Made by a program: the position numbers and the translations under genes. From assembly GCA_015039365.1 (NCBI GenBank), contig WION01000396.1:1-48631 (forward strand): 48,631 nucleotides of DNA, written 5' to 3'. This DNA comes from Amanita rubescens (Eukaryota; Basidiomycota; Agaricomycetes; Agaricales; Amanitaceae). Within the stretch, counting starts at the first letter, position 1, and every line of letters begins with the position of its first letter. This document shows, in pieces, positions 1,499-46,856 of this stretch. The notes beneath the pieces were generated by a model, which ran no database searches, had not been told where the DNA came from, and saw only the letters and a program-made list of their open reading frames with translations.

Positions 1499-4400
1499 AT
1501 GTCGGCAGAGGATCCACCTCAGGTAGTGAATACTGGTATCTTTGCTGGATACCAGAATGTTGTTGTTATGGATAGTCAATATAAAGAGGTATTGCATTTC
1601 AGCATTTGGTGACGTGGATTTTGTCAATAATGATGACTCATAGATCAACTACTATCTTGCAGACTATTCCAATATTGATCTACCTCCTTTACCTCCTATC
1701 AAACATTCTAGTACTTTCTTTACAGGCCAAGATAAGTACTTGCAGAAGCTGAAGGATTACTTTGCCCCCAATATGGGAGGCCAAAGAAATTTTGTCCTTT
1801 TGCATGGTTTAGGTGGCATTGGAAAGACACAGATTTGCCTTAAATTCATTGAAGAAAACCCTGATTTGTGAGTAGTTTACACATTAGTATAGTAATTCAA
1901 TATAACAGACCTATTCAAGGTTCTCTGACATATTCTGGATTGATTCTTCTTCACAGAAAAGTATTGAATTTGCACTCACACAGATATCTTTAACCTACAG
2001 TACTTCACTAAATGGTAGACCCTCACCCAGATCTGCTCTTGATTGGATCTCCCAAACACCCAACTTTTTGATGGTGTATGATGGAGCAGATGAACATTAC
2101 TCAGTAGTTGAGAACTTCCTCCCACCAGGAAATGGAGGAAATGTTCTGATAACAAGTAGGAATATTGGATTGAAGAGGTTGAGCAACAACTCAACAGAGA
2201 TTCATGGCATGGAAGATAAAGATGCTATGTCCTTGCTTTTGAAGTCAGCCATGCTTGATGACACAGACAATGATATCTATAATCTGGCCCAGCAGCTTGT
2301 TTTGCAATTGGATGGAATCCCTCTTGCCATTGACCAAGCAGGAGCATACATGCATTTCTGTGAGTGCAGCATTGATAGCTATTTGGGGTTGTATGCAAGA
2401 TACAAGAATGAGTTAATGAGGGATACACCAGGATTTAAGGGTGCTTCAGATTATGGGACATCTACATATGGGACATGGGACATTTCTATGAAAAACATGG
2501 AGATTATGACTGCAAGCAAAGTTGGGGGAGAAGCTGAGGCAGCACACAGTGCAATCAGGCTATTAAGGATTTTTGCCTTTTTGAATCATGAGAACATACC
2601 TGAAGAATTATTCAAGAATGCTGCAAAAAATTACATACAGAGAAATGTTGAAGTAAAAAAGTCTGATTTTTTGTTATCAATAAGCCAACTGAGCAATCAG
2701 ACTTTATTCCTAAGTGAAGATGGGGAATGGGATAGAATGCAGTTTCTGAATGGAATAAAAGTTTTACACTCTTTTTCTTTGGTCAAAACTGTTAACCACT
2801 TGTATTCAATGCACATTCTGGTTAACACCTGGAGTAGGAGTTGTGTGCCAAAAACAGATGTTGAGAAATACTATTGCAGTGCAAGAGCACTGCTATCCTG
2901 TTCAATAGTCTTCAACTGGGAAATTGACAACTATGAATTCTGCAAATTACTTGCTCCACACATTAGGTCAAATTGCTTCCATGGATTGGAATTAAAATTG
3001 AACAGCAAGTACTATGATGATGAATATGAGCAATTTGCACTAGTATTCCATCACATTGGGAGCTGGGATGAGCAGGAAAAATTGTTACATGTTATAATTC
3101 ATCAAAGAACAACAAAGCTTGGATCAGATGACCCATCCACTCTCACCAGCATGGACAATTTGGCATCAACATACAGGAATCAGGGAAGGTGGGATGAGGC
3201 AGGGAAGCTTCAAATGGATGTGATGAATTCAAGAAAAACAAAGCTTGGATCAGACCACCCAGACACTCTCACCAGCATGGCCAATTTGGCATCAACATAC
3301 AGGAATCAGGGAAGGTGGGATGAAGCAGAGAAGCTTGAGATGGATGTGATGAATGCATTCAAAACAAAATTTGGATCAGACCACACATCCACTCTCACCA
3401 GCATGGCAAATTTGGCATCAACATACTGGAATCAGGGAAGGTGGGATGAAGCAGAGAAGCTTGACATGGATGTGATGAATGCAAGAAAAACAAAGCTTGG
3501 ATCAGACCACCCAGACACTCTCACCAGCATGGCCAATTTGGCATCAACATACTGTAATCAGGGAAGGTGGGATGAAGCAGAGAAGCTTCAGATGGGTGTG
3601 ATGAATGCAAGAAAAACAAAGCTTGGATCAGACCACCCAGACACTCTCACCAGCATGGCAAATTTAGCATCAACATACAGGAATCAGGGAAGGTGGGATG
3701 AGGGAGAGGAGCTTGATATGGATGTGGTGGATGCATTCAAAACAAAGCTTGGATCAGACCACCCAGACACTCTCACCAGCATGGCCAATTTGGCATCAAC
3801 GTACTGGAGTCAGGGAAGGTGGGATGAGGCAGAGAAGCTTGAGATGTGATGAATACAACAAAAACAAAGCTTGGATCAGACCACCCAGACACTCTCACCA
3901 GCATGGCCAATTTGGCATCAACATACTGGAATCAGGGAAGGTGGGATGAGGCAGAGAAGCTTGAGATGAATGTGATGAATGCAAGAAAAACAAAGCTTGG
4001 ATCAGACCACCCAGACACTCTCACCAGCATGGCCAATTTGGCATCAACATACTGGAATCAGGGAAGGTGGGATGAAGCAGAAAAGCTTCAGATGGATGTG
4101 ATGAATGCAAGAAAAACAAAATTTGGATCAGACCACCCAGACACTCTCACCAACATGGCCAATTTGGCATCAACATACTGGAGTCAGGGAAGGTGGGATG
4201 AAGCAGAGAAGCTTGAGATGAATGTGATGAATGCAAGAAAAACAAAGCTTGGATCAGACCACCCATCCACTCTCACCAACATGGCCAATTTGGCATCAAG
4301 ATACAAGAATCAGGGAAGGTGGGATGAGGCAGAGAAGCTTGAGATGGATGTGATGAATGCAAGAAAAACAAGGCTTGGATCAGACCACCCAGACACTCTC

Positions 4401-6126
4401 ACCAGCATGGCCAATTTGGCATCAACATATTGGAGTCAGGGAAGGTGGGATGAGGCAGAGAAGCTTGAGATGGATGTGATGAATGCAAGAAAAACAAAGC
4501 TTGGATCAGACCACCCAGACACTCTCATCAGCATGGCCAATTTGGCATCAACATACTGGAATCAGGGAAGGTGGGATGAAGCACAGAAGCTTCAGATGGA
4601 TGTGATGAATGTAAGAAAAGCACAGCTTGGATCAGACCACCCAGACACTCTCACCAGCATGGCCAATTTGGCATCAACATACTGGAGTCAGGGAAGGTGT
4701 GATGAGGCAGAGAAGCTTCAGATGGATGTGATGAATTCAAGAAAAACAAAGCTTGGATCAGACCACCCAGACACTCTCACCGGCATGGCCAATTTGGCAT
4801 CAACATACTGGAATCAGGGAAGGTGGGATGAAGCAGAGAAGCTTCAGATGGATGTGATGAACACAAGAAAAACAAAGCTTGGATCAGACCACCCAGACAC
4901 TCTCACCAGCATGGCCAATTTGGCATCAACATACTGGAATCAGGGAAGGTGGGATGAGGCAGAGAAGCTTCAGATGGATGTGATGAATGCAAGAAAAACA
5001 AAGCTTGGATCAGACCACCCAGATGCTCTCACCAGCATGGCCAATTTGGCATCAACATACTGGAGTCAGGGAAGGTGGGATGAAGCAGAGAAGCTTGAGA
5101 TGGATGTGATGAATGCAACAAAAACAAAGCTTGGATCAGACCACCCAGACACTCTCACCAGCATGGCCAATTTGGCATCAACATACTGGAGTCAGGGAAG
5201 GTGGGATGAAGCAGAGAGGCTTCAGATGGATGTGATGAATGCATTCAAAACAAGGCTTGGATCAGACCACCCAGACACTCAACATACAAGAATCAGGGAA
5301 GGTGGGATGAGGCAGAGAAGCTTGAGATGGATGTGATGAATGTATTCAAAACAGAGCTTGGATCAGACCACCCAGACACTCTCACCAGCATGGCCAATTT
5401 GGCATCAACATACAGGAATCAGGAAAGGTGGGATGAGGCAGAGAAGCTTGAGATGGATGTGATGAATACATTCAAAACAAAGCTTGGATCAGACCACCCA
5501 GACACTCTCACCAGCATGGCCAATTTGGCAGTGACATATATGGATCAAGGAGGGCCAAACTTTGAGGCAGAGACACTGGAGTTGGATATGATAAGTGCCC
5601 CAAAAGTGAAGTCTGAATCAGACCATCTGGAAGCAACTGTCACTACTAATACATGTATCACTAACCAACCCTCTTCCAATAAGGATCTTCAGACAGTTCA
5701 GCAGGATGATAGCCAACCTGAAAATATGGTAAGTTAAGTAAGCTGACCTTGGCTTTTGTCTTATCACTTCTTTTGCTTAGCCAATCAAGCCCCTTAACCA
5801 GCTAGAGATCCAACAAGCTGAAGAGCAAGAGCCCATAGTAGGTGACATGGACATTTGCCTAACTTTTGCTAGATCTGGCTTTTGCATAGATCTCCAGTAC
5901 CCATGACCATTTCAAGGAGGTTCCACATCAGGTGCAAGAGCAGAGTCAGGATGTGGTGCCCATGGTATTCTACCCTTGCACACCAATTCCCACTTTACAT
6001 CTAACTTTGTGTTCTTTGATGTAGCCTTCCAGTTCTGGTGAACAACAACTTGAGCACATTGCAATGCAAACTAAGAATCAGTTTATGGAGGGACTCAAGG
6101 GCATATGGAGAAAACTGAAGTGTTGA
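1499..6126 (+). pseudogene. NB-ARC/TPR NLR-like protein, copy 1, two frameshifts
   Basis: This is a STAND-family NTPase joined to tetratricopeptide repeats, the architecture of fungal NLR-like intracellular sensors. Exons by splice signals and comparison with copy 2: 1499-1588, 1644-1867, 1920-5728, 5781-5837, 5890-5964 and 6025-6126, with introns of 52-60 nt. The N-terminus before the NTPase is short and shows no known effector domain. Walker A is GLGGIGKT (1806-1829), followed by Walker B FLMVYDGAD, the NVLITSRN segment, the GLPL-like IPLAIDQAGAYM, a winged-helix-like region, and 20 TPRs of 42 aa. A 4-nt deletion near 3845 and a 25-nt deletion near 5287 each break the frame. Adding 29 nt to the exon total gives exactly 1462 codons, which supports the model. 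The reading frame is otherwise open, so the lesions are recent, assembly errors, or variation within the repeats. The predicted C-terminus ends LKC. Confidence 0.85.
3118..5560 (+). repeat. Array of 20 tetratricopeptide repeats, 126-bp period
   Basis: Twenty near-identical 42-codon units of the TPR_10/TPR_12 (kinesin light chain-like) type begin with LGSDHPDTLTSMANLAST and continue YWNQGRWDEAEKLEMDVMN. Variation is concentrated at a few positions: W/R/C/K and N/S after STY, E/Q/D before M, A/S/T/V and R/F/T before the K-T-K end, and D/S in HPDTL. The rest is almost invariant even at the DNA level. That pattern indicates repeated unequal exchange or gene conversion. The last units (from about 5530) degenerate. 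Both frameshifts of the gene lie inside this array. Confidence 0.95.
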
Positions 6127-11468: not shown

Positions 11469-14400
11469 ATGGAAGATACTCATACAACTAGCATGCTTCT
11501 ATCAAGTAGGCAAATATATGCATTTCTATCCCCTCCCAAAATTTGACTAGTGTATTTGGATATAGATGACTCAGAGAAACATGTCAAAATGCTCAAAGAT
11601 CAATACCTATGTCCCCATTTTCGTATCCTTATCATAGGAAGGGCCAATGCTGGCAAAACAACCATCCTTGAGAAGCTTTGTGGTGTAGCAAGGGGAGCAA
11701 AGCCTATCATATATGACAAAGATGGTAAGCCTGCCTCAAATTTCTGCTTTTACATTCTTAGTTCTTTGTAGGTAAAGAGCTTTTACCCACTGGGTCTCAT
11801 TTGATTTCATCAATTGAGGTAAGTTGACTTGTGACATCTCAACATACTTTATTCATATCCAGTTACATATCACCAGAGAGGCCTTCATGATATTGAGCAT
11901 CAAATTACATTTGATGGAAGTAATTTTATCTTCCATGACTCTCAAGGTTTTGAATCTGGTGCAACTGAGGAATTGGAGATTGTTTGGGACTTCATTGAAA
12001 AGAGGTCTGGAGAAACTGAGATAAAGAATCAGTTGCATGCAATTTGGTATATTCCTTGTGCTTTTAACATCACATTCCTGATCTGCCTTATTGTATGTAG
12101 GTACTGCATCCCCATGGATGGCCCTCGTCCCATTCTACCTGCAGAGCTTGCATTTTTTACAAAAGGGACTGGCAAAGGTAAATATTTATTGCTCAAATTG
12201 AGGTCTTTACCCTCCCCCACTCATTCCTTATGGATTCCTTGCATTCCGCGTGGAGGTTCCATGGAATCCACGTGGATTCCTTGCAATTTCAAGATGGTCC
12301 AAATGGCCCAGAACACACTAAAAAAAGTCCATGGAATCCGTGTGGAATCCGTGTGGAATCCATGCATATTCCACGGAATCTCAGGAATTTGCCTGGAACA
12401 GGAGTGACAAGGAATCCACATGGACTCCATGGACTCCATGGATTCCAGGTACATTTCTGCCTGGTTTGCATAATGCTGACATACAAGGACTTTCAGCACA
12501 AGGAGTCCTCAGGAGTCCACATGGACTCCTGATTCCCATGGTCATGTGACAGGCCACTTGGTCTGTGCGCCAGCCCACAGGTATATAAGGAGAGGGCATG
12601 TACCACATATCCCCCACTGCTTCCCCCCCTTCCTTGAGGATGGGGGGGAGGGGAGTGATAAGATTAGATAGATAGATAGTGATTAGATATATGTACATCT
12701 CATAGGTAAGTAGGTAAGCTTAAGTAGCAGTATGATGATGTAGATAAGATAAGATCACAGATAAGATAATATGATTTCCTTTTATAGAATTTGTGACAAC
12801 ATGAGGTGTGTGACGCGTGACTGTGACAAAAAAGATGCACCTAGATTGTGTGATTCAGAATATACAAGAATGACAGTGCCAAACAAAGTCAAACATGAGA
12901 AACACTTTTTCACATCTGACAGAAAATTGAAAAAATCCAAAAAATTGTCAAAAATCCAAAAACATTATGTGATCACATCTCTGCAAGAATTGCAGTGCAA
13001 AACACAACCAAACACAAGATATTTTCAAAATACTGTTTTGGTGGGAATGGTGGCTGTTACAGTAATGGACTCCTACATTAGTACACAATCATGCTTGGCA
13101 GACAAGCCTCCTCATTCATCATGCCTATCCTTGCTTACTCTACCTTGATTACTTTGCTGACACATGCATTGTTACATATGTAGCTGTGGTCAGCGATCTG
13201 ATATGTAGTGGGGTGTACACACTTTACTGTATTTATTTCTGCAACACAATCAGGACCTAGCCTACTCCTTTGCAAATTTGTAGTTGTTTCCCCCATTTGA
13301 CTGGTGTGTTTGCAAAATGCTGTACCTACTAAGCTTCCACACTAGAGTGACCATCTGGCAAATGATACAATGAGACAGACTAGGGCTATGTAAGACTAGT
13401 ATGGATACATATATTGAAAGAACACCTCAAGTTTGCAATAGTGCCCCTTAGACAGTCAGACAGTCAGACAATAAGTGTATCAGCAGCTGACAGTGCCTTT
13501 TAGATAGTCAGACAATCAGACAACTTATGCAACAGTGTCTCTCAGATAGTCAGACAGTCAGACAATTAGTGTATCAGCATCCATCAGTGTCTCTTAGATG
13601 GTCATGCAGTCAGACAATTAATGTGTCAGCATCTATCAGACAATCAGAAAAGCAGAAAATCAGACAAGTTATGGAGTAGTGTATCTCAGATGATTAGGCA
13701 GTCAGACAACCAGTGTGTCAGACAGAACCAGATGCGATCAGACTTTTACTGTGTTAGCTGATGGTCATCCAGTAGGTCACTTCTGTACTACTGATAACTG
13801 AGATCCTTAAAGTCTGCTTAGATGCCCAGCCTTTTCAGCTAACAGATGTGGTTGCTGGAGGTATCCATAAGCTGGTAGGTGTGAGAGGGAGGTGGCAGGT
13901 GATTGCAAGTGGTTCCTTGTGATGGTAATGAGGTAGACATTGATAACTTGAATTGCTGGCATGTCAGCCACCATTGATCACTAGCTGTCAATATTCTGCT
14001 AACAACTGCTCACCAATGTATGTATCTCCAGATAGTCTGTGGCTTTTGAATGGTTAGCTGATACTGATCCAAGGACTATCTTGGTATTTGGACTCTATGC
14101 ATGTCCTAAGATAATAAATCTTATATAGGTTTGATCTTAGGAATTTTCTATATTTTTTGGAATTTTTTCCATATTTTTTAATGCATATATTGCTGCATGG
14201 AATCCACGGAGTCCACATGGATTCCAGACAATGTACCAGGAATTCAGGTGTAAATCATGTTTTTGCCTGTTGCCAGGAATGTGCCTGGACTGAGCATGGA
14301 ATCCACATGGACTCCATGGAATCCTGGTAGAATTTCCACAGAAATTTCCTTTTTGCAAGGAATCCATGTGGAATCCATGTGGATTCTGTATGGATTCCAT

Positions 14401-15045
14401 GGAGTCAGCCAGGATCCTGCCAGGAAGCGTGGGGGAGGGTAAAGTACTGCTCAAATTGGCTTCTACCTGCCCCAAAATCTATGATGCCAGTGTATTAACA
14501 AATTCATATACATAACCTTGCAGTTCCTTTGGTGGTTGTGTTTACCAAATTTGATGGTCAAATCATTAATGAATATGTTACCTTAATGAATCCATACATT
14601 GAAGATAAGTGGGAAATGGCTAGGAACAATGCTGAACATACTTTTCAAGAGGTTTACCTTCCCAAAGTCTTAGATGCCAAATATCCTCCTAAGGCATATG
14701 TGCGATTGGAAGGTGAGAAGGCAAGCATTCCATCTCTCTAGTAACATAAATAATATTGCTTGAAAAATAGACATGGATTTACCAGAGAAGCACTGTCCTG
14801 AATTAGCTCAACAGACTGCTGATGCAATTGATGATGAAAGCTTACATCATTTGTTTGTCTCAACACAGAAGAATAACCTTGATCTCTGTGTTAAGGCTGC
14901 ATTTCAGTGAGGTTCATATTAAAGCATTTCTTTTCATGCACTGACCATTCTCAGAGCAGTTATTGAGAAGAATAATATCATATGGGAAGACACTGCTATT
15001 GTTGTTCTTAGCAAATTTCCACATTACTGGGTATGCATAGTTTAA
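11469..15045 (+). CDS. TKFD-type P-loop GTPase, left-arm copy
   Basis: A small GTPase-fold protein of a family widespread in basidiomycetes; its cellular role is unknown. Exons: 11469-11505, 11551-11724, 11772-11818, 11877-12046, 12101-12177, 14524-14712, 14771-14906 and 14955 onward. G1 is GRANAGKT (11637-11660), G3 is DSQG (11937-11948) and G4 is TKFD (14544-14555). QLHAIWYCIPMDGPRP and PPKAYVRLEDMDLPEKHCPE are further family-like segments. Exon 1 supplies the A and exon 2 the TG of an internal Met codon. The last large exon reads to SKFPHYW. It can stop at TAA 15043-15045, or use the donor GTATGC directly after the TGG at 15028-15030 and run into the downstream array. The exons up to 15030 total 906 nt, exactly 302 codons. 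The 2.3-kb fifth intron holds a transposon. CpG is very rare. Confidence 0.85.
12201..14448 (+). mobile_element. Non-autonomous TIR DNA transposon in a GTPase intron
   Basis: The ends are AGGTCTTTACCCTCCCCCAC on the left and, on the right, the near reverse complement GGGGGAGGGTAAAGTACT. They are flanked by the 10-bp direct repeat GCTCAAATTG at 12191-12200 and 14449-14458. The right-arm GTPase intron is uninterrupted at this point, so this is an empty/filled site pair. No transposase-like frame exists inside. Subterminal zones (12225-12530 and 14195-14410) are packed with GGAATCC, GGATTCC and GGAGTCC words in both orientations. A target duplication of 9-11 bp is compatible with a Mutator-like or KDZ-like origin; the superfamily cannot be fixed from this sequence. 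Confidence 0.88.
13440..13740. repeat. GTCAGACA minisatellite inside the transposon
   Basis: Imperfect tandem copies of CAGTCAGACA, alternating with GTGTATCAGCATC-like words. The same words occur at 20160-20390 in the related element of the spacer, showing that the two elements belong to one family. Confidence 0.8.
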
Positions 15046-17998
15046 TAAATATCTGCACAATGTAGAAAAACTGAATTGAGAACAGTTCCGCAGGCAGGCA
15101 GGTGTCTTTTTATATGACATAATAAACATTCACAAAAATATGCAACAGCATGCAAGTAACACTGTGATTTATTTGCATGTGCCCTAATTAGCCTTGTGCT
15201 AGATGTCTGTCACAGAAATGAAAGAAATTCAGGTGTATTCTATCATCATAGTGTTTGTACAAAGTGTAACAATTGGATGACAGTGGGTGAGCAAAATTCA
15301 ATCACTCATGTAGACACATATGGTGCCTTGTCTCATGACCATCAGTTTGTGAGTGATGCTTCACTTCATTACTTAAACATTTTATCCCATGAGCAACAGG
15401 AAGTGAGTGTACCACTTAATTCCTGACAGGGAGTCCCATGGCTCGTGATGTGACCAACAGACAGTGAGTAAATCTACTCATTTAAACAATGTTGTCATGC
15501 TACATTCTACAATTAAAAGGCAGTCAGTGTCACAATATTTTCCTGACCTCGGAACTCACACTGCATCACATTCTATCACATCAAGAAAGTGAGTGACATT
15601 AACATTTTTTTAACATCTACCCTGATCGAATGAGCAACAGAATGTTTGTGACATTATACTTATATTTGAACAAATCTGGTTTAATTACATCTTAACAATA
15701 GCGAGTAAGTGACAGTGTCTGTCCAACTACTGATATTCATTCTAAGCACTCAATACAGGTGGTGAGTGAAGACCTACATTGTCTTCTGGGCAGTCTCTTC
15801 ACACTGAGTACATGAACAATAGAAAGTGAGTGGTGACACTGTTCACTCCTATGCAAGGAGAATTAATCATGTCCTTATGTCACAGTCAGTAAGTAATCCC
15901 ATCATGCACTTTGGCAGGCATCTTATAACAGCTTGTGGTAACATGAACAACAGTATGTGAGTGAACTTGCACCTTTGTCTAAAACAAACTCTCAGGAAAT
16001 ATTAATCATGCAATCAGTCTGTGGGTAACATTGGGTATTTGTCTGAAAGAAAGCTTCATCACCCCTTCTTCCTACAATGGACAGAATGCAAGTGACATTT
16101 ATTCTCTAGAAGGCAACCTCAACACATCATGATAATTTTCCATAACTAATAGCGTGTGATTAACATTGCACTATTTTCTGAAAGCAGTCTTATGACATTT
16201 GTTTCTATGTCTAACAGAGTGTGGGTGATATAAACACTTCTCTAATGGCAATCATCACAGCTCATTTCTTATGGTCTACAGCATGTCAGTGGTATTACAT
16301 TTTTTCTGATACTTAACATCATTATATTCTTCCTATGGTTAACAGGAAGTGAGTGACATTTAACAGTTGTCTGGAACAAATATTCATTGTATTTCTTTAT
16401 GACCAACAGTTTGTCAGTTATGTTACACATTTTTCTGCAATCCAGTCTCATCACTGGTTTTCTATCACCAACAGGCGGTGAGTGAATATTTTGAAATTTT
16501 GATGGCAGTCTCATCACACAATTTGACATCCCCAATAGTTTGTGAGTGATATTTCATATTTATTTTCTGAAAGGTGATGACATATTACACTGTTGTCTCC
16601 AACAGGGAGTTCAGTCTGCACAGTTTTTTGAATGGTTGTCACTTATCACATTGTTTTCTATTGCCTTCAGTATGTAAGTGAACATATTGCTAGTAAGAGG
16701 TGACTTTACCACATCCTTTACCACCACCAGTTTGTCAGTGATGCTATACATTTTTCTGGAAAATTGTTTCATCACCTTGTCCTACAATCAACAGAGTGTG
16801 AGTGACAATGAGCATCTTCCAGAAAAGTAGTCTCAGAATGCAACAAACAGGGAGTGAGTATCATCATGCAAAATTCTCAAGGGAGTCTTATCACCTAGCA
16901 ATCACATGATCACTTCTTCTATGATCAACAGGCTGTAAGGGAATTACACATTTTCTAAAAAGCAATTTTATTACATATTTTTCTTTGATAAATAGCATCG
17001 TGTCAGTGCACTTGCATGATTTTCCTCAACTTAGGAAGCCTTATCATGTGTTTTTTCTTGGCCAACAGGAAGTGAGTTCTGTGTATTGTGCATTTCTCTG
17101 AAATACATATTCTCCTATTTCCAACAGGTGAGTGTGATTCTGCACTTTGAATGGCAGACTAGTTTATCACATCTTCTCCTAGCATGACAGACAGCGAGTG
17201 TGTGACATTGCACATCTCATGAATTCAATTTCATAGCACATTCTCATCCCCAACAGCATGTGTGTGATATTTTACCTTTGTTCTACAGTCAATTACAATT
17301 TGTCCATCTCCAACAGCAAGTAAGTGATGTTTAAAGGGAAGGAAGTCACATCACATCTTGTACAATTCACAGTTTGTGAGTGATATTGTGCAATTTTCAG
17401 TGTGGAGATTCCCATGACCAATAGGGAGTGAGTGAGACTGAACATCTTTATGCTATGGAAATCCATGATATTTCTAATGACAACAGAAAGTGAGTGGTAC
17501 AAAAACTTTTGAACATGAGCCTCATTACATTCCAATCCATCAATGCTTGATGTATCATTTGAATGTAACAGGAAGTGAGCAGCATGATACAATTGTCTTT
17601 CTGTGCTTTCCCCCTTTTTACTGCTGCCCATAGATTGTGAGATTGCATTTTAGTTTGTCTAATTCCTAAACTTCTGTGTCTTCCCAGGTGAGTGATATCA
17701 ACATAGGATTTATTAATACTGTGACATTTATCTATATGCTAGTTTGTAAGTCTGGTTCTACATTTGAAACCTGATTCTTTCTTATACATAATATGAAAGG
17801 GACCACTTTTATCTTTGTTTGGAGATGTTCCAAACAAATTTTCAATAACTGTATGCATTACTCTTACCCTTGTGATAAATAACTGATATCAGGACAATTT
17901 GAAGCCCACAGCCTGCCAAGTTTTAATTTGTAAAAGTTGCTTCTCTTCACTAACTCTCTTCATGCTAATGCATTCAAGCAATGAATATTATTGCTAAG
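15031..17998 (+). other. Left-arm array of single-codon microexon-like junctions
   Basis: This is a chain of intron-like units (roughly 42-82 nt) separated by very short slots. Each slot lies between a 3' splice site (consensus CAACAG, variants AATAG, ACCAG) and a 5' splice site (GTGAGT, GTAAGT, GTCAGT, twice GCAAGT). The first clear slot is CAT 15149-15151, then TGG 15284, TTT 15346, GAA 15400, ACA 15461, GCA 15520 and so on to TTT 17743-17745. I count 41 junctions: 37 of 3 nt, one of 6 (16996-17001), one of 9 (17191-17199), and two of 0 (AG directly on GT at 17127/17128 and 17687/17688). None of the slots is a stop codon in the GTPase phase. The units are plainly related to one another, so tandem duplication built the array. 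No constant branch-site word was seen. Splicing is inferred, not shown. Confidence 0.75.
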
Positions 17999-18169
17999 CT
18001 ATCATTTTGGATTGGCAAACCATTCCGGGAATCAGTCATGGAGGCTTTTGAGAAATTTGAGAGAGAGGGCTATGTGCAGAAACTGAAAATGGCCATTACT
18101 TTGCAGGCCGTAGATTTGAGCAAGGAAGACTTAGTTGTATTTATGTGCCAGTATGTGACCCACATTTGA
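17999..18169 (+). CDS. Conserved exon after the left array
   Basis: The open frame LSFWIGKPFRESVMEAFEKF continues to a stop at 18167-18169. It is conserved in the right arm at 22047-22211 with a few replacements. It has an ATG at 17981 but lacks the look of a free-standing gene. The acceptor-like GCTAAG ending at 17998 would join it in phase 0 to the preceding array. A pyrimidine-rich stretch with CTAAC and CTAAT branch-like words lies upstream. The segment is amphipathic and charged (KFEREGYVQKLKM). I do not recognise the family; it is most simply the C-terminal exon of the extended GTPase gene. Confidence 0.5.
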   Translation, partial: LSFWIGKPFRESVMEAFEKFEREGYVQKLKMAITLQAVDLSKEDLVVFMCQYVTHI

Positions 18170-22211: not shown

Positions 22212-25200
22212 CTTAGCAATAATATTCATTGCTTGAATGCATTAGCATGAAGAGAGTTAGTGAAGAGAAGCAACTTTTACAAATTAAAACTTGGCAGGCT
22301 GTGGGCTTCAAATTGTCCTGATATCAGTTATTTACCACAAGGGTAAGAGTAATGCATACAGTTATTGAAAATTTGTTTGGAACATCTCCAAACAAAGACA
22401 AAAGTGGTCCCTTTTATTTTATAAAAATCAGATTTCAAATGCAGAAGTGGACTTCTGACTTACAAACTAGCATATAGATAAATGTCACAGTATTAATAAA
22501 TCTCATGCTGATATCACTCACCTGGGAAGACACAAAAGCTCAGGAATTAGACAAACTGAAAAGCAATCTTACAATCTATGGGTAGCAGTAAAAATGGGGA
22601 AAGCACAGAAAGACACTTGTATGCTGCTCACTTCCTGTTACACTCAAATGATACATCAAGCATTGATGGGTTGGAATATAATGAGGCTCATGCTCAAAAG
22701 TTTTAGTGCCACTCACTTTCTGTTGTCATTAGAAGTATCATGGATTTTGGTAACATAAAGATGTTCAGTCTCACTCACTCCCTGTTGGTCATGGGAATCC
22801 CCATACATAAATTGCACAATATCACTCACAAACTTTCAATTGTATAAGATGTGACTCAGATGTGACTTCCTTCCCTTAAATCATATCACTTACTTCCTGT
22901 TGGAGATGGACAAAATGTAATTAACTTTAGAACAAGGGTAAAATATCACACACATGCTGTTAATGATGAGAATGTGCTATAAAATTGAATTTTATGAGAT
23001 GTGCAATGCCACACACTTGCTGTTGGGCATGCTAGGAGAAGATGTGATGAACCAGCCTGCCATTCAAAGTGCAGAATGACACTCACTCCCTATTGATTAT
23101 GAAACAGATATAATGTGACTCCTGTTCACAAATGTGTTACAATATAACCCACTACCTTCTGAAGACAGGAAATGATGTGATGATACTGCCTTTTAATAGT
23201 AAGACTACTCACTGGCTGTTGTGCATTGCAGAATATACAATGAGGTTATTTTCCAGAATGATGTGCACTGCCACCCACAAACTGTTGGTGAAGGAAAAGA
23301 AATATATGAGGGTTTCAAGAAATTATATATGTATAATGTGACCCACAATTCCTTTCTGTTGGTTAGGAAAAATGTCAAAAAACTACACCTCAGGGGATTG
23401 TAATCTTATTCCACTCACTGTTGGCTGTTGGTCATAGGAAAATATGCCATAAGACTGTATTTCAGAGAAATGCACAATACACAGAACTCACTTCAGGCTG
23501 TTGGCCAAGAAAATAACACATGATGAGGCTTCCTTGAAGAAAATCATGCAAGTACACTAACTCCATGCTATTTGTTGAAGAAAGATTGTATGTAATAAAA
23601 TTGCTTTTTAGAAAATGTATAATTCCCTTACTGCCTGTTAGTCATAGAAGAAGTTATCATGTGATTGCTAGGTGATAAGACTCCCTTGAGAATTTTGCAT
23701 GATGATACTCACTCCCTGTTTATTACATTCTGAGATTGCTTTTCTGGAAGATGCTCTGCCACTCACACGCTGTTGATTGTAGGACAAGGCAATGAAACAG
23801 TTTTCCAGAAAAATGTACAGCATCACTGACAAACTGGTAGCAGCAAAGGATGCGGTAAAGTCACCTCTTACTAGCAATATGTTCACTTACATACTGTAGG
23901 CAGTAGAAAACAATGTGATAAGTGTGAAGACCAGAAAACTGTGCAGACTCACTCCCTGTTGATGATAACAGAGTAATATGTGATCAGGCTACCTTTCAGA
24001 AAATATGAAATGTCACTCACAAACTATTGGGGATGTGAAATTGTGTGATGAGACTGATAAAAAACTTCAAAACTGTTCACTCACTGCCTGTTGGTGATAG
24101 AAAAACCAGTGATGAAACTGAATTGCAGAAAATTGTAACTGACAAACTGTTGGCCACAGAGAAATACATACAATGAAGATTTGTTCCAGACAACTGTTAA
24201 ATGTCACTCACATACTGTTAACCAAAGGAAGAATATAATGAGGTTAAGTATCAGAAAGATCTGTAGTAATGTCACTGACATGCTGTTGACCATATGAATT
24301 GAGCTGTGATGATTGCAATCAGAGAAATGTCTATATCACTCACATCCTGTTAGACACAGAAACAAATGTCATAAGATTGCTTTCAGAAAATAGTGCAATG
24401 TCAATCACTTCCTATTTGTCATGGAAAATCGTCATGATGTGATGAGGTTGCCTTCTAGAGAGATAAATGACACTTGCATGCTGTCCATTGTGGGGAGAAG
24501 GGGTGATGAAGCTTTCTTTCAGACAAATGTCTAATGTTACCCACAGACTGGTTATATGATAAATATTTCCTCAGAGTTTGTTTCAGAAAAAGGTGCAAGT
24601 TCACTCACATACTGTTGTTCATGTGACCACAAGCTGTTATAAGATGCCTGCCAAAGTGCATGATGGGATTACTTACTGACTGTGTGACATAAGGACATAA
24701 TAAATTCTAGCATAGGAGTGGACAGTACTGTCACCACTCACTTTCTTTTGTTCATGTAGTCAGTGTGAAGAGACTGCCAAGAAGACAATGTAGGTCTCCA
24801 CTCACTGCCTGTTTTATTGAGTGCTTAGAATGAATATCAGTAGTTGGATGGACAGTCACTTACTCGCTATTGTTAAGATGTAATTAAACAAGATTTGTCC
24901 AAATATAAGTATAATGTCACAAACATTCTGTTGCTCATTGAATCAGGGTAGATGTTAAAAAAATGTTGGTGTCACTCACTTTCTTGATGTAATAGAATGT
25001 GATATAGTGTGAGCCCCAAAATTCAGGAAAATGTTGTGAGACTGACTGCCTTTTAATTGTAGAATATGGTGTGATAATACTGTTTAAAAGGTAGATTTAC
25101 TCACTGTCTGTTGGTCATATCATGAGCCATGGGACTAGTACCTGTCAGGAATTGAGTGGCACACTCACTTCCTGTTGATCATGGGACAAGACTTTTACAT

Positions 25201-25493
25201 AACTAAGAGAAGCATGACTCACAAACTGGTGGCCATGAGACAAGGCATGATATTTATGAGTGATTGTATTTTGCTCACCCACTGTCATCCAATCATTAAA
25301 CTTTGTACAAATGGTATGTGATAGAATACACCTGAATTTCTTTCATTTCTGTAACAGACATCTAGCACAAGGCTAATTAGGGCACATGCAAATAAATCAC
25401 AGTGTTACTTGCATGCTGTTGCATATTTTGTGAATGTTTAGCATGTCATATAAAATTGGACACCTGCCTGCCTGCGGAACTGTTCCCAATTCA
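22212..25493 (-). other. Right-arm array of single-codon microexon-like junctions
   Basis: Same organisation as the left array, read on the minus strand from CAT (25413-25415, GC donor) to TTT (22464-22466). I count 46 junctions. Most are single triplets; the exceptions are CATGGA, CCTGAA and CCAACA (6 nt), AAAGGAATT (9 nt) and one zero-length AG|GT site at about 22521. A GTA slot near 23152 can also be read as six. All are multiples of three and none is a stop. About two thirds of the alignable slots match the left arm. The extra units lie between the slots homologous to left 17069 and 17191, where the left arm appears to have lost sequence. Confidence 0.73.
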
Positions 25494-25520
25494 ATTCTTT
25501 CTACATTGCTGTGCAGATAT

Positions 25521-26842
25521 TTAACAAACTATGCATACCCAGTAATGTGGAAATTTGCTAAGAACAACAATAGCAGTGTCTTCCCATGTGAAATTATTAT
25601 TGATGACTGCTCTGAGAATGGTCAGTGCATGAAAAGAAATGCTTTAATATGAACCTCACTGAAATGCAGCCTTAACACAGAGATCAAGGTTGTTCTTCTG
25701 TGTTGAGACAAACAAATGATGTAAGCTTTCATCATCAATTGCATCAGCAGTCTGTTGAGCTAATTCAGGACAGTGCTTCTCTGGTAAATCCATGTCTATT
25801 TTTCAAGCAACATTATTTATGTTACTAGAGAGATGGAATGCTTGCCTTCTCACCTTCCAATCGCACATATGCCTTAGGAGGATATTTGGCATCTAAGACT
25901 TTGGGAAGATAAACCTTTTGAAAAGTGTGTTCAGCATTGTTCCTAGCCATTTCCCACTTATCTTCAATGTATGGATCCATTAAGGTAACATATTCATTGA
26001 TGATTTGACCATCAAATTTGGTAAACACAACTACCAAAGGAACTGCAAGGTTATATGAATTTGTTAACACACTGGCATCATAGATTTTGGGGCAGGTAGA
26101 AGCCAATTTGAGCAATAAATATTTACCTTTGCCAGTCCCTTTTGTAAAAAATGCAAGCTCTGCAGGTAGAATGGGCCGAGGGCCATCCATGGGGATGCAG
26201 TACCTACATTGTACAATAAGCCAGATCAGGAATGTGATGCTAAAAGCACAAGGAATATACCAAATTGCATGCAACTGATTCTTTATCTCAGTTTCTCCAG
26301 ACCTCTTTTCAATGAAGTCCCAAACAATCTCCAATTCCTCAGTTGCACCAGATTCAAAACCTTGAGAGTCATGGAAGATAAAATCACTTCCATCAAATGT
26401 AATTTGATGCTCAATATCATGAAGGCCTCTCTGGTGATATGTAACTGGATATGAATAAAGTATGTTGAGATGTCACAAGTCAACTTACCTCAATTGATGA
26501 AATCAAATGAGACCCAGTGGGTAAAAGCTTTTTACCTACAAAGAACTAAGAATTTTAAAGCAGAAATTTGAGGCAGGCTTACCATCCTTGTCATATATGA
26601 TAGGCTTTGTTCCCCTTGCTACACCACAAAGCTTCTCAAGGATGGTTGTTTTGCCAGCATTGGCCCTTCCTATAACAAGGATACGAAAATGGGGACATAG
26701 GTATTGATCTTTGAGCATTCTGACATGTTTCTCTGAGTCATCTATATCCAAATACATTAGTCAAATTTTGGGAAGGGAATAGAAATGCATATATTGGCCG
26801 CCTACTTGATAGAAGCATGCTAGTTGTATGAGTATCTTCCAT
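25521..26842 (-). CDS. TKFD-type P-loop GTPase, right-arm copy
   Basis: Near-identical to the left-arm copy, with the same exon order, G1 GRANAGKT, DSQG and TKFD. Its fifth intron is short because no transposon is present. Differences include MDPYIEDKW for MNPYIEDKW and FQKVYL for FQEVYL. The ATG equivalent to the left start lies at 26840-26842, but the acceptor of the first intron is changed from AG to AA. The same change creates an ATG at 26755-26757, at the codon that splicing would have made. Translation may therefore start there, losing 12 residues. The frame reaches SKFPHYW and a stop at 25521-25523, or continues through the GTATGC donor into the array. CpG is nearly absent. Confidence 0.83.
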
Positions 26843-40325: not shown

Positions 40326-41876
40326 ATGGCTCAACGTCGCGGTAGACGTGGTGGTTCTCTTCCTCCTTTCTCCCGGGGGGGGCGTGGCCGTGGTGCTGCG
40401 CCTCCTTCCGATTCCCAAGAAGCTCAACATGCTATGGATACTGATGGGGATGGCCCTCCCCCGTCGTCACACTCTTCGCAGTGGGCATCTACCCAAGGCG
40501 ATGAGTTCCCCGAGGCCCCTCAGCCTTTCTCCTACGTCCAAGAGGCGTGTCTTGATTTCCGTACCGCCATCGATGGCATCCGCGCCGCCGATCTCTCCGA
40601 TTCTGTCCGTCAGTCCCTTTATGAGGTTATCGAACCCTTCGCCCTGGCAATAGGTGTGGAATCTTTTGTCATTGGGGGTCGAAAGGTTACTGTAACCCGA
40701 GCCGCGGGCACCCACTTTGAGGAGCTCCCTCCCCAGGGGGCCTCAACCTCTGCCCCACCTGCCCCCCCTGCCACGTCAGAACCGCCCCAACCCACGGGGA
40801 CCACGGGTATTCGGCCGACTGTCGCCGCTGCCCCCCTTACCATTCGGATCAACAAGAGACAGCTTCTCGGCCGCCCTCCCCCCCCGCCTCCCGTCAGGCG
40901 ATCCTACGCTAGCGCTGTTGGGGCCCCCCCAGCCAAGCCTACTCTTCCTGCTCCTTCAAGGCAAACCACCAATATCAAGTCCTGCACTCGTCAGGGTACC
41001 AAGGCTTCGGCTTTGGTGCTCCGCTTTAGGCCCAGCCCGACTGGCGGGCCCGTCATTCCCCCTCTCCCTGCCGTTCAGAATATACTGGTTGGTATATCCC
41101 CACCGCCCGTCCATGTGGGCTTTACGTTGCGTGGCGATCTCTTGGTGCGTTTCCCCCAAGCGATAGGCCCAGAGCTCAAGAAGGAGGTCGTTTCCCTCCT
41201 TTCCACTTTGCATGCTGGAGGTGTCGAACTCCTCAGCCGGGATACCACATCCCTTATCAAGTTCATGCATGTCCCCACACGTCGCCTGGATGGTGCTCCC
41301 GCCACTGCCGACTGGCTCCATTCTACTGTCGCTGCCCACCCCCGTTGGAAGGGGGTGCATTTTGTCCAGAAAGCCCACTTTGTTGTCCCTACGGGCAAGA
41401 CGATCGGTTTCACCGCCACCGTTGTGGTTGAGGTTGCTGACGATCGTGCATCATCGGTTGCACGTCGTCTTCTCCAGTCCGACGTTGTCTTTGACGGCGT
41501 CCCCTGTCGTGCCCGCCCTTGGGTTTTACGCAAGGCCTCTCGCCAGTGTGGCATCTGCCTACGGTGGGGCCATACCGCCCATGTCTGCTCGTCGCGCCTC
41601 GCTTGGTGCGCTCTCTGCGCCAACCCGCATAGTTCGGCCGTCCACTCGCAAGCTGTCCGCCAGGACTCCTCCTCCGACCGTATTAAGTGTGTCAACTGCC
41701 TTGGGCCCCATCCCGCCATCTCCCGGGATTGCCCCTTTTTCGTCTCTAGATTTGATGAACAAGCGCTTGCTCGCCTGCAAGCTGATCGCCTCAAACGGGT
41801 CCGCCAGGCTCGCTCTAGGCGCACAGAAAAGAAAGTTAACGCGAAATTCGCCGCCCGTTACGACGACCTGGATTAG
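40326..41876 (+). CDS. LINE ORF1 (gag-like) protein with zinc knuckles
   Basis: A 516-aa nucleic-acid-binding ORF1 product of a non-LTR retrotransposon. The N-terminus is rich in Arg-Gly (QRRGRRGGSLPPFSRGGRGR) and the next third is proline-rich and low in complexity. A folded region follows, with RFPQAIGPELKKEVVSLL and GVHFVQKAHFVVPTGKTIGF. Near the end lie a CCHC knuckle CGICLRWGHTAHVC, a second Cys/His group CALCANPHSSAVH, and a third CVNCLGPHPAISRDC, then a basic tail. The frame is intact. The start at 40326 is the first ATG after the element's 5' end. In intact LINEs an ORF2 with endonuclease and reverse transcriptase follows; here it is absent. Confidence 0.87.
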   Translation: MAQRRGRRGGSLPPFSRGGRGRGAAPPSDSQEAQHAMDTDGDGPPPSSHSSQWASTQGDEFPEAPQPFSYVQEACLDFRTAIDGIRAADLSDSVRQSLYEVIEPFALAIGVESFVIGGRKVTVTRAAGTHFEELPPQGASTSAPPAPPATSEPPQPTGTTGIRPTVAAAPLTIRINKRQLLGRPPPPPPVRRSYASAVGAPPAKPTLPAPSRQTTNIKSCTRQGTKASALVLRFRPSPTGGPVIPPLPAVQNILVGISPPPVHVGFTLRGDLLVRFPQAIGPELKKEVVSLLSTLHAGGVELLSRDTTSLIKFMHVPTRRLDGAPATADWLHSTVAAHPRWKGVHFVQKAHFVVPTGKTIGFTATVVVEVADDRASSVARRLLQSDVVFDGVPCRARPWVLRKASRQCGICLRWGHTAHVCSSRLAWCALCANPHSSAVHSQAVRQDSSSDRIKCVNCLGPHPAISRDCPFFVSRFDEQALARLQADRLKRVRQARSRRTEKKVNAKFAARYDDLD

Positions 41877-43273: not shown

Positions 43274-46200
43274 ATGTCAGATCCACCTCAGGTAGTAAAT
43301 ACTGGTGTATTTGCTGGATGCTGGAACTTTTATATTAGGAATGCCCAATTTATAGAGGTATTGAATTTCAGCATTTTTTCACCTAGATCTTGTCAATAAT
43401 GAAGACTCATAGATCAACTACTATCTTGAAGACCCCTCCAATGTTGATCTACTTCCTTTACCCCCTATCAAACATTCTAGTACTTTATTTACAGGCCAAG
43501 ATAAGTACTTGAAGAAGCTGAAGGATCACTTTCCCTCTAATATTGGAGGCCAAAGAAATTTTGTCCTTTTGCATGGTTTAGGTGGCATTGGCAAGACTCA
43601 GATTTGCCTGAAATTCATTGAAGAAAATCCTGATTTGTGAGCATTTACTCATTAGTATAGTAATTCAAGATAACTGACTATTCAAGGTTCTCTGACATAT
43701 TCTGGATTGATGCTTCTTCAGAGGAAAGTGTTGAATTTGTACTCACACAAATGTCCTCAACCTACAGTACTTCACCAGATGGTAGACCCTCAGCCAGATC
43801 TGCTCTTGATTGGATTTCTCAAAGGCCCAACTTTTTGATGGTGTATGATGGAGCAGATGGACATTACTCAGTAGTTGAGAACTTCCTTCCACCAGGAAAT
43901 GGAGGAAATGTTATGATGACAAGTAGGAATATTGGGTTGAAGAGGCTTGCATTGAGCAAGAACTCAATGGAGATTCATGAAATGGAAGATGAAGATGCTA
44001 TTTCCTTGCTTTTGAAGGCAGCCATGCTTCATGACACAGATGATGATATTGATAGTCTGGCCCAGCAGCTTGTGTTGCAATTGGACAGAATCCCTCTTGC
44101 CATTGACCAAGCAGGGGCATATATGCTTTCCTGTGGTTGCAGTATTGATGGTTATGTGGAATTGTACACAGGATACAAGAACAAGTTAATGAGGGATCCA
44201 GGATTTAAGGGTGCCTCAGATTATGGAACATCTACATATGGGACATGGGACATTTCCATGAAAAAAATGGAGGATATAGCTGCAAAGGATAACTCAGAGG
44301 AATCTCTTGGAGCACAAAGTGCCATCAAGCTCTTGAAGATCTTTGCTTTCTTAGATCATGCTAATATACCACAAGAATTATTCAAAAGTGCTGCTGAGAA
44401 CTACACAAAAAGACACATTGAGGATGATGTGTATCTTCCATCATCTTTGATCCTGCTGGATGATGCAACTGTATTCATGGGAAAAGATGGGGAGTGGGAC
44501 ATAATGAAGTTTCTATATGGCATCCAGGTTTTACTTTCATTCTCATTTTTGAGATGTCATAACCACTGGTATTCCATGCACCTACTAGTAAATGCCTGGA
44601 GTAGGAACTGCATACCAAAAACAGAAGTAACTGATTACTATTACAGAGCAAGAGCACTGTTGTCCTGTTCAATCACTCTTGACTGGGATGCTGATAATTA
44701 TGAATTCTGTCAATCACTGGCACCACACATTAGGTCAAACATGTTGCATGGATTGGAATTGAATTTGAACAGCAAGTACTATGATGATGAATATATAAGA
44801 TTTGCACTTGTATTTCATAATACTGGGAGCTGGGATGAGGAAGAACAATTGTTACATGTTTCAGTTGATCAAAGAAAGACAAGACTTGGATTGGACCACT
44901 TGCACACTCTTACCAGCATGGCTGAATTGGCATCAACATACTTGAATCAGGGAAGGTGGGATGAGGCAGAGAAACTTGAGATGGATGTAATGAATGCATA
45001 CAAAATAAAGCTTGGATCAGACCACAAAGACACTCTCACCATCATGGGCAATTTAGCATCAACATACAGGTACCAGGGAAGGTGGGATGAGGCAGAGAAG
45101 CTTGAGATGGATGTAATAAATGGATTCAAAACAAAGCTTGGTTCAGGCCACTCATACACTCTCACCAGCATGTCCAATTTGGCAGCAACATACAGGAATC
45201 AGGGAAGATGGGATGAGGCAGAGAAGCTTCAGATGGATGCGATGAATGGATTGAAAACAAAGCTTGGATCAGACCACCCAAGCACTCTCACCAGCATGGG
45301 CCATTTGGCAGACACATACAGGGTTCAGGGAAGGTTGAATGAGGCAGAAAAGCTTCAGATGGATGTGATGAATGCAACAGAGCAAAGCTGGGATCAGACC
45401 ACCCAGGCAGTCTCAGGAGCATGGCTAATTTGGCAGCAACACACTGTGATCAGGGAAGGTGGGATGAGGCAGAGAAGCTTCAGATGGATGTGATGAATGC
45501 AAGGAAAACCAAGTTTGGATCAGACCACCCAGAAACTCTTGGTAGCATGGGCCATTTGGCAGCAACATACAGGAGTCAGGGAAGATGGGATGAGGCAGAG
45601 AAACTTCAGATTATTGTGTTGAATGCAACAAAAACAAAGTTTGGATCTGACCACCCAGACACTCTTACCACCATGGCCCAATTGGCAGCAACATACTGCA
45701 ATCAGGGAAGGTGGGATGAGGCAGAGAAGCTTTGGATGGATGTGATGAATGCATTGAAAACAAAGCTTGGATCAGACCACCCTAACACCCTCACCAGCAT
45801 GGGCCATTTGGCAGCAACATACAGGAGCCAGGGAAGATGGGATGAGGCAGAAAAGCTTCAGATGGATGTGATGAATGCATTCAAAACAAAGCTTGGATCA
45901 GACCACCGATCCACTCTTGGCAGCATGGGCATTTTGGCAGCAACATACTGTAATCAGGGAAGGTGGGATGAGGCAGAGAAGCTTCAGATAGATGTGATGA
46001 ATGGATTCAAAACAAAGCTTGGATTGGACCATCCATCCACTCTCAGGAGCATGGCTAATTTGGCAGCAACATACAGGAGTCAAAGAAGGTGGGATGAGGC
46101 AGAGAAGCTTCAGATGGATGTGGTGAATGCATTGAAAGCAAAGCTTGGATCAGACCACCTAGAGACCCTCACCAGTATGTCCAATTTGGCATCAACATAC

Positions 46201-46856
46201 AGGAATCAGGGAAGATGGGATGAGGCAGAGAAGCTTCAGATAGATGTGATGAATGGATTCAAAACAAAGCTTGGATCAGACCACCAATCCACTCTTGGCA
46301 GCATGAAGCTGCTGACAGAGATGATGAATGCAAGAAAAGATAGGCTTGGGTTCAGCCACCCAGATACTCTTCCCAATATGATATCCAACTTGGAAGCAAC
46401 ATGTAGGAATGAAGGAAGGTTGAATGAAGCAGAGGAACTGGAGTTGGATTTGATAAATGCCAAAACAGTGAAGCCTAAATCAGACCATCTCAATGCAACT
46501 CTTGCTAGTACTGCTAACCAACCCTCTTCCAATCAAGTTCTTCAGACAGCTCAGCATGATCATAATCAATCTGAAAGCTTGGTAAATTAAGCAAGCTGAC
46601 CTTGGCTTTATATCTAACCACTTCTTTGCTTAGCCAAAGCCCCTTGACCAGCTAGAGATCCAGGAAGTTGAAGTGCAAGTCTCCATAGTAAGTGACATGC
46701 ACATTGACTTAAATTTTAATTGTCATACTAAATCTGGATTTTGCACAGATATCTGATGGATTTGGTGAACAACAACTTGAAGACCTTGCAATACAACCTA
46801 AGAATAAGTTTATTCAGGGACTCAAAGGCATATGGGGAAATCTGAAGTGTTGCTGA
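43274..46856 (+). pseudogene. NB-ARC/TPR NLR-like protein, copy 2, one frameshift
   Basis: Paralogue of the gene at 1499. Exons 43274-43357, 43413-43636, 43687-46581, 46634-46687 and 46749-46856; introns about 50-61 nt. Walker A GLGGIGKT lies at 43575-43598, then FLMVYDGAD, NVMMTSRN and IPLAIDQAGAYM, then about 13 TPRs that are more diverged from each other than those of copy 1. A 1-nt deletion near 45385 (GCAACAGAGCAAAGCTGGG against the consensus) shifts the frame. Adding one base makes the exon sum exactly 1122 codons. Only this lesion separates it from an intact gene of about 1121 aa, so a sequencing error or a recent null allele are both possible. The predicted C-terminus is LKCC, a possible lipidation site. 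CpG is nearly absent. Confidence 0.87.
44878..46420 (+). repeat. Array of about 13 tetratricopeptide repeats
   Basis: Units of 126 bp like those of copy 1 but more varied: ASTY/AATY, RNQ/RSQ/CNQ/RVQ, EM/QM/QI, NAFK/NGFK/NALK. The twelfth unit is internally shortened and the last is degenerate. The 1-nt frameshift lies between units 4 and 5. Confidence 0.92.

Follow-up and report, generated by a model that had tools for sequence, protein, structure and literature searches.

Arrays of consecutive single-codon exons, very likely spliced in frame, in a GTPase multigene family of Amanita rubescens

The window analyzed here is a stretch of 48,631 nucleotides (nt) from Amanita rubescens (assembly GCA_015039365.1, contig WION01000396.1, positions 1 to 48,631). 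It contains two inverted paralogous GTPase genes, each of which carries an array of closely spaced splice sites of the form CAACAG-NNN-GTGAGT, in which a single triplet (a "slot") lies between a 3' and a 5' splice site. As argued below, the segment preceding the C-terminal helices in this multigene family comprises about 30–80 consecutive exons, nearly all of one codon, separated by introns of ca. 62 nt; this chain is real and coding, and it is very likely spliced codon by codon into an in-frame messenger RNA (mRNA).

The GTPase-domain blocks of the plus-strand gene were located at 11589–11726, 11862–12176 (with an internal intron), 14523–14711, 14770–14904, and 14956–15030. The last of these exons ends in ..FPHYW; its closing TGG (15028–15030) is in phase 0, as the first-pass annotation of this DNA had stated, and is followed by GTATGC. 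Three short exons were placed by spliced alignment to the protein P0037 (described below): FRRQ (15086–15097, 12 nt), H (15149–15151, with a GC donor), and MSVTEMKEIQ (15203–15232, 30 nt). From 15284 to 17745, a hand reading gave 36 single-codon exons, one 6-nt exon (16996–17001), and one 15-nt exon (17183–17197), with the peptide WFETAKNRVKSYSNRSHEFAFGYFSGAHREHDRQRHQFGKEIF. At 17128–17133 and 17688–17693, AG is joined directly to GTGAGT with no codon between. By hand count, the array (15031–17799) holds 41 exons, of which 37 are exactly 3 nt and the rest 6, 12, 15, and 30 nt, with sites near the pattern given above. The first-pass count of 37 single-triplet slots was thereby reproduced, and its 6-nt slot and two zero-length slots (at 17128 and 17688, adding nothing) stand; its 9-nt slot does not, the 12-, 15-, and 30-nt exons being found instead. 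The next exon had been set at 17999; the post-array exons are instead 17800–17850 (GPLLSLFGDVPNKFSIT, phase 0), 17905–17929 (PTACQVLI(S), 25 nt, phase 1 at its end), and 17979–18169 (the tail exon, ..NIIAKLSFWIGKPFRES.., through the stop). The exon at 17183–17197 was read as 15 nt by analogy with HAQQR in P0037, the alternative being the single codon CGA at 17195–17197. The slot at 16087 is AAT (16085–16087) with a GC donor; at 16606, where the donor (GTTCAG) is poor, the hand reading gave GGA and the parser 8 nt. The intron before the 14523 exon holds an insertion of ca. 2.3 kb (12177–14522), bounded by GCTCAAATT repeats and lacking from the minus-strand copy; it has the appearance of a transposable element flanked by its target-site duplication.

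The second array occupies 25538–22411 of the minus strand and belongs to the inverted paralogue. Its GTPase-domain blocks (25539–26718) also end in ..FPHYW, and spliced alignment to P0037 placed 47 exons between FPHYW and GPLLSLFGD (22411–25538), 40 of them exactly 3 nt and the others 6, 6, 6, 9, 12, 15, and 30 nt. The post-array exons are 22410–22360, 22305–22281, and 22231–22047 (including the stop). The array encodes 68 residues in 3128 bp; to join them, 48 introns would have to be spliced out, ca. 4% of the array DNA being coding. Among the matches listed, the closest relatives of the two window genes are converging pairs ca. 8–12 kb apart on C23, C67, C289, and C328, which are either segmental duplicates or two haplotypes.

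P0037 is a JGI protein of 285 residues from a 1099-bp contig, and its sequence spans GTPase domain, array residues, and tail. Its last 164 residues (from VVLSKFPHYW) were aligned to the minus gene with introns required only to begin with GT or GC and end with AG. The resulting alignment matched 162/164 residues and divided them among 51 exons, of which 40 have a length of exactly 3 nt; the complete P0037 coding sequence covers ca. 4 kb of genome (26034–22050). A parse of the minus array made before P0037 was known gave 35 letters, all 35 of which occur in order in P0037 (2000 shuffles: mean 17.1, maximum 22); a later parse, using profiles trained without the window genes, placed 45 of 46 letters in P0037 order (shuffle maximum 25). 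Against the plus gene, the alignment matched 134/164 residues in 35 exons, 24 of them 3 nt; it is poor in the middle because the plus gene differs there. No contiguous genomic copy of the array residues (148–217) was present among the assembly matches listed, in which the best candidates were scored, and a retrocopy as the source of P0037 was rejected on the same matches. Because of its length of 1099 bp, we infer that the contig is complementary DNA (cDNA), P0037 being known here as protein sequence alone. Protein searches with the P0037 linker region returned P0037 itself and P0121, and the linker region of the predicted L049 gene returned one partial match, P0122.

The arrays were surveyed in 20 genome regions of A. 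rubescens plus the window. Of the 23 chains found, 19 sit between an upstream GTPase exon ending in ..FPHxW and a downstream tail exon; the post-array exons of the family are HELFSMFGDK..-like and PTDCQVLVS-like, followed by the tail. Of the four remaining chains, two lie in L037, a third in L038 prolongs the second of the L037 chains, and the fourth is in L046, for which the GTPase lies just beyond the examined stretch (C46:12651). Upstream of the first L037 chain, an 80-slot array, lies a retrotransposon open reading frame (ORF; L037 3–1298, in C3:124500–134400), which we take to be copia-like; no GTPase exon was found within that stretch. Eighteen of the 19 flanked arrays, each with its flanking exons placed on either side, were parsed with slots allowed any length from 0 to 15 nt (L052, whose post-array exon was not placed, was left out). 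These arrays contain 33–83 slots each, with introns of median length 62 nt (quartiles 59–65) and donors that are GT in 896 cases and GC in 11. Slot lengths were multiples of three in 902 of 907 cases: 864 slots were 3 nt, 14 were 0 nt, 13 were 6 nt, two were 9 nt, and nine were 12 nt, the others measuring 1, 2, 4, 4, and 8 nt. Summed over the gene, the slots preserved the frame in 14/18 genes. No stop codon occurred among the 864 triplets (54–60 expected), in agreement with the first-pass statement that no slot is a stop and now extending it beyond the window genes. The NAA slots AAA, CAA, GAA, and TAA numbered 49, 71, 117, and 0, the NGA slots 20, 61, and 90 with TGA at 0, and the neighboring triplets TAT and TTT occurred 25 and 86 times.

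The exact pattern CAACAG-NNN-GTGAGT was also searched for over the 75.7-Mb genome, with the pattern read backward as the control. It was found 3050 times, the control four times. Exact slots of 2, 3, 4, 5, 6, and 9 nt numbered 30, 3050, 19, 12, 51, and 21 (controls: 7, 4, 4, 15, 5, and 11). Among the exact 3-nt slots, TAA and TGA together occurred twice, TTT alone 249 times, and NAG 33 times, with TAG at 0. Since the exact pattern fits 356 of the 907 parsed slots, there may be ca. 7,800 slots genome-wide, or ca. 155 loci at ca. 50 slots per array, an extrapolation in which alleles are counted. Two arrays, C13:580538–584204 (L018 and L019) and C749:2137–4150, contain several 2- and 4-nt slots, the C13 array also having the odd codons CTA, CAA, and CATT; these are either decayed copies or assembly errors.

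When the plus and minus arrays of the window were compared, changes were found at 4/243 donor sites and 6/162 acceptor sites, compared to 141/1455 sites in the intron cores. Thirty-five indels of 1–11 nt fell within introns only, and two touched codons, with lengths of 3 and 338 nt. The first-pass proposal that reading frame is selected is thus borne out by four lines of evidence, namely the slot lengths, the missing stops genome-wide, this comparison of paralogues, and P0037.

The array could alternatively be one large intron in which the AG-NNN-GT points act only as ratchets for recursive splicing and no codon reaches the mRNA. Both flanks are in phase 0, so a junction from 15030 to 17800 (TGG/GT to AG/GGA) would also be in frame; the two zero-length AG/GT points of the plus array suit this arrangement, as does the gene model P0072 from another locus, in which a short stretch replaces the array. 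A single intron, however, predicts neither the 3-nt spacing nor the absence of stops, and the slot residues are present in order in P0037. We consider it very improbable, and it was rejected for the minus gene, whose slot codons P0037 keeps. Removal of the array whole with no codon kept, the outcome named in the first-pass annotation as fatal to its proposal, is accordingly contradicted for the minus gene if P0037 represents a transcript; no P0037-like sequence was found for the plus gene.

An equally improbable account holds that P0037 and similar proteins come from copies without introns, carried by other fungi or individuals, the A. rubescens arrays being decaying, unspliced relics. That P0037 is known as protein alone, and that C13 and C749 contain several off-length slots, would fit; but no contiguous copy was among the assembly matches listed, and relics would not have maintained splice sites, frame, and freedom from stops across thousands of slots. 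The third alternative, a noncoding 65-bp array of satellite repeats or binding sites spaced by a constant 3 bp, to which the 65-bp ladders at several loci and one 62-nt intron repeated letter-perfect 352 times would be congenial, was rejected with near certainty, because stop triplets are missing where their one-base neighbors are common, 19 of the 23 chains are flanked by the same pair of coding exons, the window copies have drifted apart in intron length but not in slot length, and P0037 matches.

Several observations weigh against a chain of in-frame single-codon exons. The RNA origin of P0037 is deduced, its source being tagged "jgi, contig 1099", and no second sequence of this kind that closely resembles the window genes was found. 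P0037 agrees with the plus gene over its first 60 residues (100%) and with the minus gene over its array, and must therefore represent a further copy, an allele, or a chimera. Slot lengths other than multiples of three occur in five of the 907 parsed cases, and four of the 18 genes, including the window plus gene with its 8-nt slot at 16606, do not sum to a multiple of three; these were taken as parse errors. Both genome-wide stop slots are TGA (on C537 and C557), and the off-length slots cluster, 13 of the 30 2-nt and five of the 19 4-nt slots lying in the C13 and C749 arrays. Stop counts in shifted triplets were also 0–4, although these cannot serve as a control because splice-site bases are fixed there. 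Codon sites differ between the window arrays (20/171) about as often as intron cores, so the array peptide is not strongly conserved. Finally, besides the P0072 gene model, the proteins P0003, P0007, P0011, P0061, and P0066 pass FPHxW and lose homology before the tail, for which mis-splicing, alternative splicing, or assembly could each account.

If the arrays are spliced codon by codon, each ca. 62-nt intron would be recognized by intron definition and removed singly, since splice sites 3 nt apart could hardly be bound simultaneously; the upstream exon, lengthening at each step, would provide the exonic part of the following 5' splice site. The product would be a flexible linker whose sequence and length vary and that joins the GTPase domain to the helical tail. 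Confirmation would place these genes at an extreme of gene fragmentation and offer a naturally occurring series on which intron definition and splicing order could be tested. It would also mean that an entire region of the protein can be missed by standard annotation throughout a large gene family.

Codon usage in the slots is strongly skewed. Compared to the ordinary exons of the same genes (111 exon matches), the K, E, and Q codons had an NAG:NAA ratio of 17:237 in slots versus 553:586 (Fisher p = 6e-41). NNC codons made up 6/864 slots (1024/5763 in ordinary exons) and NNG codons 58/864 (1170/5763), such that nearly one codon is used per amino acid. AG-ending codons are plausibly avoided in slots since each would offer a rival acceptor 3 nt further on; this reason does not extend to the remaining skew.

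Introns and codons do not vary together. Intron cores within one array are on average 49–88% identical (43–47% in shuffles), and this identity falls little with distance. In L039, the most homogeneous array, past the twelfth unit and at lags of 1–40, introns differ by 1.5–2.1% (ca. 2% overall) and codon sites by 42–76% (ca. 65% overall); the lowest codon difference, at lag 18, marks a block duplication (22/52 codons identical). The letter-perfect 62-nt intron mentioned above had a control count of 0. Codon identity does not track intron identity, and introns have therefore spread or been homogenized separately from codons. The arrays might be viewed as sets of codon cassettes in which near-identical introns serve as arms for recombination. 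Gene conversion and unequal crossing-over, both inside single loci and among the ca. 150 of them, would insert, remove, or exchange single residues, invariably in frame, yielding a hypervariable linker in GTPases that resemble immunity-related GTPases (IRG) and possibly serve immunity. We advance this tentatively and with somewhat more doubt than confidence. The exon structure itself, with every slot a whole codon in phase 0, would mean that the gain, loss, or exchange of a slot, whether through recombination between the near-identical introns or through skipping, alters whole residues and leaves the frame intact. If the chain of exons is confirmed, single residues would behave as exchangeable, frame-safe units, and if the cassettes also hold, protein diversity would have a new way of evolving at the grain of the single residue.

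Allele comparisons bear on this proposal. Between C13 (L018 and L019) and C254 (L022), 15/2612 intron positions and 47/123 slot positions differ, and 27 of 39 matched codons are changed. This apparent hypervariability was not used: many C13 slots are CTA, CAA, CA, or CATT, unlike those of the parsed arrays (CTA in 2/864), which suggests consensus errors among nearly identical repeats. In part, this doubt also touches the homogeneous arrays L039 and L050 and hence the cassettes; arrays with diverged introns, including both in the window, are less exposed to assembly error. A cleaner pair, C23 minus (L029) versus the window minus array, differed at 5/114 slot and 70/2064 intron positions, with no clear excess. 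The pair L021 and L023 contained no usable array for such a comparison.

Relatives of the host protein were examined as sequence for 24 proteins plus P0022 out of 843, and additionally as alignment rows. The GTPase motifs G1 (GRANAGKTT) and TKFD are present in conserved alignment columns. Pfam PF01926 (MMR_HSR1-like) was returned for P0022 at E = 0.00063 and 20.3 bits, under the cut-off of 21.9, and no Pfam match was obtained for P0005, P0012, or P0037. The JGI proteins P0005, P0008, P0012, P0033, and P0037, and the more distant P0088, P0103, and P0110, contain a GTPase domain, linker, and tail. P0037 alone fits the examined loci closely, the next best being P0003 (91% over 46 residues). P0005 and P0008 are identical at 261/265 GTPase-domain positions and at 86/91 tail positions, compared to 27/54 in the linker, which has 17 gap columns. 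In the AlphaFold2 model of P0005, residues 295–357 have pLDDT values below 50, the GTPase domain is mostly above 80 (the loop 71–79 is below 50), and the helices from ca. 361 onward are at 79–97; the linker between GTPase domain and helical tail is thus predicted to be disordered in this relative. Gene models among the 120 relatives listed are 226–355 residues long in A. rubescens, with one of 407. The related JGI GTPases P0110 and P0112 have low-complexity linkers at the same place (YHHREEEEYHHHHH.. and EELREELERNNEEE..); perhaps similar arrays exist outside this group.

Two ORF groups on the plus strand of the window (2068–5530 and 43751–46590) flank the GTPase pair and contain near-identical 126-bp (42-residue) repeats, with 17.3 copies at 92% matches and 11.0 copies at 83% matches; they are presumably NLR-like, with TPR-like repeats. 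The plus-strand ORF at 40326–41876 ends in a cysteine-rich stretch that we assume to be zinc-knuckle-like, resembling a retrotransposon gag.

No precedent for a gene with dozens of consecutive one-codon exons was found in the open-access PMC literature, the search not reaching subscription papers or bioRxiv. The best fold matches of P0005 (Foldseek) were GM4951 and Irga6, with E-values of ca. 1e-5 and low TM-scores of ca. 0.33–0.39; the likeness to the IRG (p47) proteins concerns the host protein and not the exon array. Exons of the aphid bicycle genes are reportedly longer than one-codon array slots. Those genes, putative gall effectors rather than GTPases, are described in PMC9168663 as rapidly evolving, with microexons mentioned. 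Recursive splicing at AG/GT points leaves no exon, whereas the minus-gene slots are kept as codons in P0037. The general view is that the smallest exons are poorly recognized or skipped (PMC4674806). Spliceosomes can include exons of 1–3 nt (PMC4674806), as in isolated 3-nt microexons and in Arabidopsis APC11 with its 1-nt exon; those are single cases, and A. rubescens has dozens in a row. Fungal introner-like elements are near-identical introns in many copies, and are described as free of target-site duplications and terminal inverted repeats (PMC9860276, PMC4457414). The array introns resemble them in being near-identical at many sites, as the 352-copy intron illustrates; introners, however, are described as inserting into many genes, and the A. 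rubescens copies occupy nearly every codon boundary of one segment in one gene family, all arrays with both flanks in view belonging to it (isolated copies were not searched for). In the schistosome micro-exon genes (MEGs), too, very short exons follow one another, most with lengths divisible by three, and automatic annotation has difficulty with them; PMC10526429 gives 35 genes with 10–20 exons, mostly of 15 bp (range 6–81 bp in its text and 3–81 bp in its abstract), introns of 0.1–5 kb, and secreted products. The A. rubescens segment likewise consists of consecutive short exons in multiples of three (902/907 slots; 40 of the 51 P0037 exons are 3 nt), but differs from the MEGs in that nearly all of its slots are 3 bp, its introns have a median of 62 nt, and its product is an internal linker of a GTPase.

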